48,223 bases of DNA from the NCBI GenBank assembly GCA_015064525.1, contig SVSC01000005.1, positions 1 to 48,223 on the forward strand. Direction: 5' to 3'. Under the pieces are notes generated by a model that worked only from the letters and a program-made list of their open reading frames with translations, made no database searches and was not told the origin of the DNA. Below, in pieces: positions 29,373 to 48,223 of the stretch. Every line of letters starts with the position of its first letter. The first letter of the stretch is position 1. The translations under genes were made by a program, and so were the position numbers. The DNA is from Oscillospiraceae bacterium (lineage in GTDB: Bacteria > Bacillota > Clostridia > Oscillospirales > CAG-272).

Positions 29373-30644
29373 ATGAACAAAGCACAGATCAGTAAGTGTT
29401 GCGCGCGGGAAATTCTGGATTCCCGCGGAACCCCCACCGTGGAGGCAACGGTTTGCCTCACCGACGGAACGATTGGAGTTGCAAGCGTTCCCTCAGGCGC
29501 CTCCACGGGAATTTTTGAAGCCTGCGAGCTGCGGGACGGCGACAAAAAACGATATCACGGTCGGGGGGTTCTCGGCGCCGTTTCAAACGTGAACCGACAG
29601 ATCTCGCAGGCGCTCAGCGGCGTGAACGCCGAGGATCAGGCGCAGATCGACCGCATCCTCCTCGATTTAGACGGCACCGAGCAAAAAAGCCGTCTCGGCG
29701 CCAATGCCACTCTTGCCGTTTCCCTTGCCGCCGCCCGCGCCGCCGCCAATCACTACCGTCTCCCTCTCTACCGCTATCTGGGCGGCGCCGCCGCAAGGCG
29801 CCTGCCCGTTCCCATGATGAATATTCTCAACGGCGGCGCTCACGCCTCCAACAACGTGGAAATTCAGGAATTCATGATCGCTCCCGTTGGCGCCGAAACC
29901 TTTGCGGAGGGACTTCGCATGGGAAGCGAAATCTACCGCACCCTCGGAAGCCTGCTGCGCGACAAGGGGCTTTCCACCGCTGTGGGTGACGAAGGCGGCT
30001 ACGCGCCCAGTCTGCCCGGGGACGAGGACGCCCTTCGTCTGATCACCCAAGCCATTACCGAAAGCGGCTACACCACCGATCAGGTGAAAATCGCTCTGGA
30101 TTGCGCCGCAAGCGAATGGTTCAGCGAAAAGGAGGCTTGCTACCGTATGCCCAAGCGAATGCTCACCAAGAGCCGCGCGGAATTGATTGGGGAGTGGGAG
30201 CGTTTGGTGTCCGAGCATCCGATTTTTTCCATTGAGGACGGCTTGGATCAGCGGGATTTCGACGGCTGGCGGGAAATGACCGCCAAGCTCGGAAAAAAGA
30301 TCCTGCTGGTTGGCGACGATCTGTTCGTTACCAACGAAAAGCGCCTGCGCGAGGGAATCCGAACGGGCGCCGCCAACGCCATTTTGGTGAAGCCCAATCA
30401 GATCGGCACGCTCTCCGAGGTGCTGAACGTGATCCGCACCGCCCTTTCCCACGGCTACGGATTTATTCCCTCCCATCGCTCGGGAGAAACCGAGGACACC
30501 ACCCTTGCCGACATTGCCGTTGCCACCAACGCCGCCTATATCAAAACGGGCGCTCCCTGCCGCAGCGAGCGGGTTGCCAAATACAATCGTCTCCTCCGCA
30601 TTGAAGCGGCGCTCGGTGACGGCGCGGTGTACGGCGCTTGTTAA
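29373..30644 (+). CDS. eno: Enolase
   Basis: [47 protein letters not shown] ... [30 protein letters not shown] ... [14 protein letters not shown] ... [13 protein letters not shown] ... [46 protein letters not shown]. Confidence 0.96.
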
Positions 30645-30770: not shown

Positions 30771-31098
30771 AAATCAAAACCACCGGTTGAACCGGTGGTT
30801 TGCACAGCCCCTATAAGGGGCTATTACCGGCTTAACCCCTAAAAGGGGCACCGAAATTTATTATCGCATCACACGCACTGCAACCCGTAAACGGGTAACT
30901 TCAATAGGCTCCCTTGTGTAAAGTGAGCTCCGCCGTAGGCGGTGAGGGATTGTTTTTCTTTTGTTACAAACCTTCCGTCACGCTTCGCGTGCCACCTCGG
31001 CTTTCTTTCGGCTTGTATATAGCTCGCCCAATTTATTTGTAGCCCTGCTCTGTTTTACCGCTCCCCCAGTAGAACTGGGGGTTTATTTTGACCACCAA
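30771..31098. mobile_element. Multi-hairpin dispersed element (putative non-autonomous PATE/REP-like element), complete copy
   Basis: Left 100 bp matches 48124-48223 with 2 differences and flanks diverge at the boundary; right 37 bp matches 36938-36974 in inverted orientation. Hairpins include CCACCGGTTGAACCGGTGG, AGCCCCTATAAGGGGCT, CCCCTAAAAGGGG, ACCCGTAAACGGGT, CCGCCGTAGGCGG, CACGCTTCGCGTG, CCCCCAGTAGAACTGGGGG. No credible CDS inside. Confidence 0.7.
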
Positions 31099-31101
31099 CA
31101 A

Positions 31102-31133
31102 AACGCCCCCGACAGTTTTCTGTCGGGGGCGTT
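31102..31133 (-). terminator. Terminator of the ThuA-Gfo/Idh operon
   Basis: AACGCCCCCGACAG TTTT CTGTCGGGGGCGTT, 14-bp stem. Confidence 0.75.
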
Positions 31134-31149: not shown

Positions 31150-32235
31150 TCAATCGAAGCGATAAATGTCGCCGGTTTTTGCGGAGGTGTAGATGCCCTC
31201 CAGAATACGGGTGACGCAGTATGCCTGCTCGGGGGTGGTAACGGGATCGGTGCCGTTGCGGATGCTCTCGATCCACATCCGCTCCTCGCGATCAGCGGCG
31301 CTTTCGCCCTTGTGCCCTTCATAGAAGGCGGCTCCGCCTGCCTTGAAGTCGGGATTGAAAACGTACTGACGGTTGTGCTTCACGCCGTTGATGCGAACGC
31401 CGCCAACCATGTCGGCTCCCGCCTTGGTGCCGCACAGGGTGGTAACAGCCTCGCGAACGTCCAGCGTGTTCAGCGCCCAGGAGGACTCCAAAACGATGGT
31501 GGCGCCGTTCTCCATCACGATAAATCCAAAGGCGGAATCCTCCACGCTGAATTTCTCGCAATCCCAGTTGCCCCACGCGTTGCCCTGATCGGTCTGATTG
31601 TTCAGCTTGTGGTAGGCGGTTCCAACGCAATACTTGGGCTTGTAGTTGTTCATCATCCAAAGGGTGAGATCCAGCGCGTGGGTTCCAATGTCGATCAGAG
31701 GACCGCCGCCCTGCTCGTATTCATTGAGGAATACGCCCCAGGTGGGAACCGCTCGGCGACGGATCGCCGTTGCCTTTGCATAGTAGATGTCTCCGAAGGT
31801 TCCCTCCTCAGCCTCCTGCTTGAGGAAAACAGAATCGTCGCGGAAGCGGCTCTGATAGCCGATGGAGAGCTTTTTGCCGGTGCGCTTTGCGGCATCCAGC
31901 ATTTTCTTTGCCTCCTCGGAATTGATCGCCATGGGCTTTTCGCACATCACGTGCTTGCCTGCCTCCAGAGCGTCCACGGTGATAAAGCTGTGGGAGCGGT
32001 TGGGGGTGCAAACGTGAACCACCGAAATCTCGGGATCCTTCAACAGCTCGCGGTAGTCGGTGTAGACCTTAGCGTTTTGCACACCGTAGTCCTTTGCCGC
32101 TTTCTCCGCGCGCTCGGGGATAATGTCGCAGAACGCAACCATTTCGGTGTCCTTCACCTTTTTCAGGGAGGGCATATGCTTTCCGTTGGCAATGCCTCCG
32201 CATCCAATAATGCCGATTTTAATGATTTCTGCCAT
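31150..32235 (-). CDS. Gfo/Idh/MocA family oxidoreductase
   Basis: IKIGIIGCGGIANGKHMPSLKKV ... VCTPNRSHSFITVDALEAGKHVMCEKPMAINSEEAKKMLDAA ... DIGTHALDLTLWMM; ATG at 32235 with AAAGGAG upstream. Confidence 0.95.
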   Translation of the reverse strand: MAEIIKIGIIGCGGIANGKHMPSLKKVKDTEMVAFCDIIPERAEKAAKDYGVQNAKVYTDYRELLKDPEISVVHVCTPNRSHSFITVDALEAGKHVMCEKPMAINSEEAKKMLDAAKRTGKKLSIGYQSRFRDDSVFLKQEAEEGTFGDIYYAKATAIRRRAVPTWGVFLNEYEQGGGPLIDIGTHALDLTLWMMNNYKPKYCVGTAYHKLNNQTDQGNAWGNWDCEKFSVEDSAFGFIVMENGATIVLESSWALNTLDVREAVTTLCGTKAGADMVGGVRINGVKHNRQYVFNPDFKAGGAAFYEGHKGESAADREERMWIESIRNGTDPVTTPEQAYCVTRILEGIYTSAKTGDIYRFD

Positions 32236-32273
32236 TTCAGTAACTCCTTTTCTGTGTGATGATGTATTTGAGA

Positions 32274-33011
32274 TCAATGATTTTTCAAAACGTAATCGCC
32301 CTCGTCGGTGATCTTTCTCACGTGGGGGCAGCCGGTGCGGGCGCGGTAGGTGGGCGCCACAAAGCGAACCGCGTTGCGGATCACGGTTTGCACGGGAGCC
32401 TGATAGAAGGTGGGAAAGGTTTCGTGGCCGGGCTGGAAGTAGAAGATCTTTCCGTTTCCTCTCTCAAAGAGGCACCCCGCGCGAAAAACCTCGCCGCCGG
32501 AAAAGCTTCCGATGAACAGCAGCTTATCGGGGGTGGGGATCACAAAGGGCTCTCCGTAGGTTTCCTCATGCTCCAGGGTGAAATAGCGGTCGATGCCCTG
32601 TGTGATGGGATGGGAGGGCTCAATCACCCAAAGCACCTCGCTGTCGCCCGATTCTCTCCAGGTGAGGTGGCAGGAGGTTCCAAGCAGGGCTTTGAAGGGC
32701 TTGGAGTGGTGGGCGGAATGCAGAAAGATCATTCCCATGCCCTCCAGAACGGCGTCGCGCACCAGCTCAACCACCTCGTTGGGAACCAGATTGTGCCGCA
32801 CGTGGCCCCACCAGATCAGAACGTCGGTTTCTGCCAGTACCTCCTTGGTGATGCCGCAATTCTCATCCTCCAGAGTCGCCGTTTTCACTTGAATATCGTC
32901 GCATTGCAGAAAATCCGCAATGGCGCGATGAATTCCGTGGGGATAAATTGCCTTCGCGCGCTCATGGGTTTGCTCATGATAAAATTCATTCCAAACCAAA
33001 ACTCGAAGCAT
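32274..33011 (-). CDS. ThuA-like (trehalose utilization) protein
   Basis: LRVLVWNEFYHEQTHERAKAIYPHGIHRAIADFL ... DVLIWWGHVRHNLV ... GEVFRAGCLFERGNGKIFYFQPGHETFPTFY. Confidence 0.9.
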   Translation of the reverse strand: MLRVLVWNEFYHEQTHERAKAIYPHGIHRAIADFLQCDDIQVKTATLEDENCGITKEVLAETDVLIWWGHVRHNLVPNEVVELVRDAVLEGMGMIFLHSAHHSKPFKALLGTSCHLTWRESGDSEVLWVIEPSHPITQGIDRYFTLEHEETYGEPFVIPTPDKLLFIGSFSGGEVFRAGCLFERGNGKIFYFQPGHETFPTFYQAPVQTVIRNAVRFVAPTYRARTGCPHVRKITDEGDYVLKNH

Positions 33012-36855: not shown

Positions 36856-36901
36856 GAGAAGCTCCGAAATGGGAAATACTGTCAGCACGTTACGGTTTCC
36901 G

Positions 36902-36933
36902 AAAAGCGCCGCGCTCCGAAGCGCGGTGCTTTT
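36902..36933 (+). terminator. Stem-loop after the M42 peptidase gene
   Basis: AAAAGC-G-CCGCGCT ... AGCGCGG-T-GCTTTT. Confidence 0.6.
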
Positions 36934-36937
36934 CATT

Positions 36938-36974
36938 TTGGTGGTCAAAATAAACCCCCAGTTCTACTGGGGGA
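36938..36974 (-). repeat. Solo right end of the multi-hairpin element, inverted
   Basis: Exact reverse complement of 31062-31098 (37 bp). Confidence 0.85.
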
Positions 36975-37033: not shown

Positions 37034-37110
37034 TGGCGCACCATGGCGGACTCGAACCGTCGACACCAAGCGTCGGAGGCTTGTGCTCTATCCATCTGAG
37101 CTAATGGTGC
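37034..37110 (-). tRNA. tRNA-Arg (anticodon CCG), CCA encoded
   Basis: Minus strand GCACCATTAGCTCAGATGGATAGAGCACAAGCCTCCGACGCTTGGTGTCGACGGTTCGAGTCCGCCATGGTGCGCCA: 7-bp acceptor, D arm, anticodon stem CAAGC/GCTTG with loop CTCCGAC, T loop TTCGAGT. Confidence 0.93.
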
Positions 37111-44930: not shown

Positions 44931-45046
44931 TGAAGCGGGATGCAAAACACAGACCGCACGCCAAGGCCTTTTCGTCCGCCCGACAACTCCCCGTTCGGTC
45001 GGCACTGCAGGAACTCAAATTCCAACGCCCGTGTTTTTACTCTTCA
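44931..45046 (-). promoter_or_regulatory. THF riboswitch upstream of folT (variant with inserted hairpin)
   Basis: Minus strand TGAAGAGTAAAAACACGGGCGTT[GGAATTTGAGTTCCTGC]AGTGCCGACCGAACGGGGAGTTGTCGGGCGGACGAAAAGGCCTTGGCGTGCGGTCTGTGTTTTGCATCCCGCTTCA; matches THF aptamer landmarks AGAGUA, GCGUU..AGUG, GAA, GCGGU, GCAUCC-GCU. Confidence 0.8.
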
Positions 45047-48123: not shown

Positions 48124-48223
48124 AAATCAAAACCACCGGTTCAACCGGTGGTTTGCACAGCCCCTATAAGGGGCTATTACCGGCTTAACCCCTAAAAGGG
48201 GCATCGAAATTTATTATCGCATC
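48124..48223. mobile_element. Multi-hairpin dispersed element, second copy truncated by window end
   Basis: Matches 30771-30870 with 2 differences over 100 bp, same orientation. Confidence 0.75.

Follow-up and report, generated by a model that had tools for sequence, protein, structure and literature searches.

A multi-hairpin repeat in an Oscillospiraceae genome is very probably a tnpA-less IS200 derivative seated behind an intrinsic terminator

Introduction

PATEs and other tnpA-less relatives of IS200/IS605 elements keep only the ends of the element and are presumed to be mobilised in trans. IS200 elements are also known to carry regulatory RNA features. Placement directly behind intrinsic terminators is a property of group IIC introns, retroelements that insert via RNA with an unrelated enzyme. 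In IS608, the cleavage sites are recognised by pairing with guides located 5' of each hairpin (PMC5934647). REPINs and their RAYT transposases provide a further system for comparison (PMC3116915, PMC8266576).

Here, we analysed a 48,223-nt stretch of contig SVSC01000005.1 from an Oscillospiraceae bacterium (GCA_015064525.1), referred to as the window. An original prediction from the letters alone had singled out positions 30771-31098 as a candidate mobile element or structured RNA. We consider it very probable that 30772-31094 is a non-autonomous, tnpA-less IS200 derivative, with mobilisation in trans and targeting to terminators as proposed below.

Results

A 328-bp unit carries both ends of an IS200-type element

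The source genome (G000) is fragmented, comprising 2.18 Mb in 149 contigs at 82% completeness. The 328-bp unit 30771-31098 sits between two genes of the window:

29373-30644, + strand: enolase gene, window neighbour
31150-32277, - strand: Gfo/Idh-type oxidoreductase gene, window neighbour

The multi-hairpin unit claimed by the original prediction is real. Seven perfect short hairpins were located at 30777-30801, 30806-30822, 30836-30848, 30883-30896, 30930-30942, 30979-30991, and 31063-31081, and a second complete copy is present in the same genome (G000:C88:20523-20864, 342 bp, 94%). The minus-strand fold of 30771-31098 is far more stable than that of shuffled sequences (z = -5.0, 0/100 shuffles). 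As predicted, no protein is encoded in 30771-31098; 14 bases nonetheless match the 3' end of tnpA. The start at 30771 is that of AAATCAAAA, whereas CCACCGGTTGAACCGGTGG, which had been placed there, begins at 30780. The features of the element, whose ends are uncertain by 1-2 nt, are as follows, the minus strand being the tnpA strand:

30772..31094, - strand (tnpA strand): tnpA-less IS200-type element; full copies, and shared ends flanking tnpA in autonomous relatives
30772..30777, - strand: right-end cleavage-site region, TTGATT on the tnpA strand; nearly constant in 21 aligned right ends, columns 4-7 pairing with 28-31
30777..30801, - strand: right-end hairpin AAACCACCGGTTGAACCGGTGGTTT; perfect hairpin, covariation
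30806..30822, - strand: second right-end hairpin AGCCCCTATAAGGGGCT; perfect hairpin, covariation
30836..30848, - strand: third right-end hairpin CCCCTAAAAGGGG; perfect hairpin, present in autonomous relatives
30883..30896, - strand: 3'-end remnant of tnpA, ACCCGTTTACGGGT; 14 bases matching the tnpA end in the autonomous relative L048
30907..31001, no strand assigned: bipartite REPIN-like palindrome in place of tnpA; dispersed repeat in genomes of the family
31063..31081, - strand: left-end hairpin CCCCCAGTTCTACTGGGGG (tnpA strand); perfect hairpin, present in type A elements
31082..31094, - strand: left-end segment that separates the target from the hairpin and carries the putative guide TCAA, a role suggested by analogy with IS608 (PMC5934647)
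31095..31098, - strand: TTGG, presumed target tetranucleotide kept in the left flank; found at nearly all type A 5' ends, where the sequence upstream varies

The hairpins are subterminal and the element lacks terminal inverted repeats. In relatives, both ends recur in the same orientation about 600-700 bp apart and enclose a gene for a 158-aa Y1 TnpA, whose coding strand corresponds to the minus strand of the window (PF01797, E 3e-37; NF033573, E 9e-44). Solved homologues of this protein include the ISHp608 transposase, and its HUH motif is present as HIH in L048. With the IS200C, IS200F, and IS1541C transposases, the TnpA of the autonomous relative shares about 60-62% identity. Independent annotation agrees: on plasmids of Monoglobus and Ruminococcus albus, an annotated tnpA (IS200/IS605) adjoins the same end. 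In another copy (G024:C5, L049:709-1185), the first HUH histidine is replaced by tyrosine (PEYIHML) in an open frame, and its TnpA is probably inactive.

The window unit retains the left-end hairpin and three right-end hairpins of IS200 type. Since both ends and 14 bases of the tnpA 3' end are kept, the unit reads as a tnpA-less IS200 derivative; the main idea of the original prediction, a non-autonomous IS200/IS605-type element with subterminal hairpins, is supported by the Y1 TnpA found between the same ends in relatives and by the recurrence of the full unit in several genomes.

Insertions lie directly behind predicted intrinsic terminators

A strong hairpin, unremarked in the original prediction, lies just outside the element and belongs to the host:

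31102..31133, - strand: intrinsic terminator of the Gfo/Idh-type oxidoreductase gene, host DNA directly 5' of the insertion; perfect 14-bp arms and a T-tract

The sample comprised 63 non-redundant 5' ends from elements of three end types, among them those on contigs C26, C50, C88, and C104 of G000; a site was scored as positive when a hairpin of -12 kcal/mol or better ended at most 14 nt from the element. Sixty of these 63 sites, which come from related elements, some of them with a common ancestor of the element but not of the insertion site, have such a hairpin on the tnpA 5' side; the measure is folding energy, so these are predicted terminators. By the same measure, hairpins were found at 31/150 noncoding TTGG/TTGT control sites from the same loci with element regions excluded (P 7e-26) and at 28 of 144 T-rich control sites. 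An earlier control with a looser cut-off (71/150) was drawn partly from the insertion loci and was replaced by the control that excludes them. On the 3' side of the elements only 11/63 have a hairpin, and the association is therefore one-sided.

Similar hairpins were found in most of 20 further relatives from viral contigs, named plasmids, and phages, including canonical IS200C and IS200F, and a second IS200C was found right behind the end hairpin of another IS200C. An exact empty site exists for the IS200 of phage Lambda_ev058: five other lambda-like phages match its joined flanks with 100% identity across the junction, and the site comes immediately after a hairpin and TTTTTATT. The search for an empty site of the window copy, which the original prediction had advised, returned none: relatives match the coding part of enolase only, and none of the fetched orthologous loci has the downstream gene beside enolase. 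Nor was an empty site found for a Salmonella IS200F carried by a phage-plasmid, the junction not being covered by any record. The terminator association is real and broad.

One alternative is survivorship, in which insertions elsewhere were lost by selection. Convergent intergenic spaces are safe places, and a survey found IS200 over-represented between convergent genes (PMC9208149). Against this, only 31/150 noncoding TTGG/TTGT sites carry hairpins compared with 60/63 insertions, the hairpin lies on the tnpA 5' side within a few bases with only 11/63 on the other side, and one IS200C lies right behind the end hairpin of another. We therefore regard survivorship as an unlikely origin of the pattern; survival bias may add to the association without explaining its short distance and one-sidedness. 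No description of terminator targeting by the IS200/IS605 family was found in the open-access literature searched, outside which the older IS200 literature largely lies, and the novelty of the rule is uncertain.

A dispersed palindrome occupies the place of tnpA

The palindrome in the centre of the element is built from two units of about 45 nt, inverted to each other and separated by a spacer that varies. That of the window (30907-31001) is damaged, with about 15 bp of its right arm deleted, and the window copy may therefore no longer be active. The palindrome is complete in the C88 copy and absent from a tnpA-less relative of 264 bp (G096:C23), which is likely an intermediate that had lost tnpA and had not yet received the palindrome.

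As an independent repeat, the palindrome is dispersed, with >20 matches per genome in some relatives. It also stands where tnpA would be expected in elements with two further IS200 end types, among them copies on contigs C48 (L253) and C1 (L254) of the source genome and copies in G001, G010, and G032 (loci including L215, L216, L268, and L272). Its orientation to the tnpA strand in those two types is opposite to that in the window element, and the acquisitions were therefore independent events. No target duplications were seen around the palindrome on inspection by eye. Its repeated entry is most simply read as neutral nesting of an abundant repeat and, more speculatively, as the supply of a foldable core that would draw the two ends towards each other.

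Further, unclassified repeated units also have the palindrome at their centre. One kind has the inverted ends GTCTCATTA/TAATGAGAC (L225, L260); another runs from GCAGTGCTTGTCAGGAAA to CCGCCCGACAGTACACC (L232, L233, L248, and others), with about nine copies in G009.

The REPIN-like layout of the palindrome, together with a weak match of TnpA to the REP-associated model, would fit a REPIN/RAYT-type system, in which the hairpins are moved by a domesticated REP-associated transposase. The model scores favour IS200, at 138-155 bits compared with only 22-32 bits for RAYT (cut-off 80), and the palindrome-rich genomes G001 and G009 are without a detected Y1 protein, which makes such a system highly improbable. 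No Y1 protein was detected in 31/35 assemblies of the genus, palindrome-rich ones included, and neither a Y1 protein nor a RAYT was detected in the source assembly; these assemblies are incomplete. A RAYT as mover of the palindrome was thus considered and set aside. Of the RAYT/TnpA mobiliser that had been anticipated, the TnpA part is supported, the enzyme between the same ends in relatives being of IS200 type; a RAYT is not needed and none was found.

The end hairpins covary

To return to the tnpA-less IS200 derivative, the covariation analysis that had been recommended gave a clear signal in its end hairpins. Across 21 aligned right ends from different genera and end types, 95.7% of the cells in the terminal and second right-end hairpins are paired, and 9/18 pairs are changed on both sides. 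Cells with changes on both sides number 38 compared with 11.8 in shuffles, and no shuffle reached the covariation score. Slid versions of the pairing are only 25-49% paired.

The foot of the terminal hairpin comprises two invariant pairs and one alternating pair (columns 7-28), which is A-U in 10 sequences and G-C in 9. By analogy, this foot pairing fits recognition of a cleavage site by a guide, as in the IS608 scheme. Type A left ends start behind TTGG, and motifs such as CCAA or TCAA lie close to their hairpin; for guide pairing at the left end this is no more than suggestive.

Covarying hairpins and strong folding could also be marks of a functional RNA product, such as a riboswitch, an sRNA, or a guide RNA, and regulatory RNA features are familiar from IS200 elements. 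Yet no Rfam family reaches its gathering score in the element and none below it is convincing, while the identical right-end structure occurs in tnpA-bearing elements, where transposition explains it. We find an RNA product most improbable. The sub-threshold families are weak, and several overlap the host terminator. The stand-alone RNA that had been suggested is thus not upheld, and the terminator-like hairpin noted at the end of the minus strand is the right-end hairpin of the IS.

Further copies and a likely helper

Two partial copies are present in the window:

48124..48223, - strand: right-end part of another copy, cut by the contig end; 98% over 100 nt
36942..36974, + strand: truncated left-end remnant of the same element family; 100% match to query positions 292-328 (36938-36974, 37 bp)

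Both had been noticed before. The recurrence at 48124 stands, and the sharp divergence reported for its flanks applies to the left flank only, the other side being the contig end at 48223. The single inverted end at 36938-36974 was recovered exactly; it too lies behind a terminator (36890-36941). About 60 bases from this remnant is a tRNA gene (RF00005, window 37037-37110, - strand), and a THF riboswitch (RF01831, 63.6 bits) was identified at 44931-45046 (- strand).

Further partial copies are on contigs C50, C26, and C105 of the source genome. Most partial copies are cut off where a contig stops, which is what a fragmented assembly would be expected to show for an element present in many copies. 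The full unit was found again in several genomes with the same order of parts. The palindrome-bearing derivative occurs in several genera of at least two families and reaches about a dozen copies in genome G013, and most genomes with the same end module are assemblies of Clostridia from the guts of ruminants. Isolated, nearly perfect palindromes that equal or resemble the right-end hairpin together with both of its flanks were observed at the intergenic positions G000:C147:10132-10166 and G000:C35:24387-24420; they may be terminators that arose from the element, or the similarity may be due to chance.

It is scarcely credible that independent REP-like palindromes only lie side by side here without forming one mobile unit: the central palindrome occurs alone in many places and a solo right-end hairpin exists at C147, but the whole unit is repeated in the same order in this genome and its relatives, where its two ends also flank a transposase, and these full-length and tnpA-bearing versions refute it. 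What survives of the composite that had been proposed is its centre, an independent palindromic repeat, and not the composition as a whole, as the full unit recurs in several genomes.

For the tnpA-less IS200 derivative, a source of TnpA was sought by family and protein searches, and no tnpA was found in the source assembly. The end of contig C104 (18048-18209) is 99.4% identical over 160 nt to an autonomous copy in G023, and the start of contig C105 (1-113) is 100% identical to it over 113 nt (L054 and L057 being the C104/C105 loci). Both contigs break at the borders of tnpA, which would explain why the searches for tnpA found nothing. As outer pieces of one such copy, C104 and C105 make it likely that an autonomous IS200 copy exists in this genome, and on the ground of these broken pieces mobilisation in trans may take place within it. 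As G023 belongs to a different species of the genus, the 99-100% identity suggests that the element was recently passed from one species to another.

Discussion

In the mechanism that we propose, TnpA from an autonomous copy would bind both end hairpins once the strand is single-stranded, for example as lagging strand, and would cut at the right-end TTGAT region and 3' of TTGG. A single-stranded circle would form and insert without target duplication. The target would be the T-tract just behind an intrinsic terminator, a preference that the statistics above document. Its probable cause is that a terminator hairpin followed by TTTTTGG resembles the right end of the element itself, a hairpin followed by TTTTGAT; alternatively, the hairpins may help to expose the target as single-stranded DNA.

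Tentatively, and with rather less than even confidence, we extend this to the IS200 group as a whole. Its target choice would be structural, with terminator hairpin and T-tract mimicking the right end for TnpA or for the transposon circle; elements, including tnpA-less derivatives, would thereby settle harmlessly behind gene terminators, by a rule so far undescribed; and in Clostridia, tnpA would have been replaced repeatedly by one and the same palindrome, possibly since a core able to fold would draw the two ends together.

These results account for a repeat that, with its many hairpins, might be taken for a chance cluster or an RNA, and also for the breaks that such assemblies show at these positions. 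If confirmed, the terminator rule would tell where a group of transposons that is the smallest and among the most widespread lands and how it stays harmless; it is also relevant wherever TnpA is to serve as a tool for single-stranded DNA.

Compared with IS200C, IS200F, and IS1541, the element is alike in the TnpA of its autonomous relative (60-62% identical), in its subterminal hairpins, in the lack of terminal inverted repeats, and, in the copies examined, in its placement behind terminators. It differs in that the window copy is without tnpA and that its ends, with three right-end hairpins, belong to a subgroup seen here in Clostridia. It resembles PATEs and other tnpA-less relatives in keeping the ends only and in its presumed mobilisation in trans, whereas here a dispersed palindrome replaces tnpA and the derivative is common to several genera. 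As in REPINs, the palindrome is made of two inverted hairpin units around a spacer; unlike in REPIN/RAYT systems, no RAYT was found and the palindrome rides inside elements with IS200 ends. Placement behind terminators is shared with group IIC introns, although the enzyme is unrelated and the RNA route is theirs only. The element is thus a known kind of IS200 derivative, and what goes beyond the routine is the terminator rule and the repeated replacement of tnpA by one palindrome.
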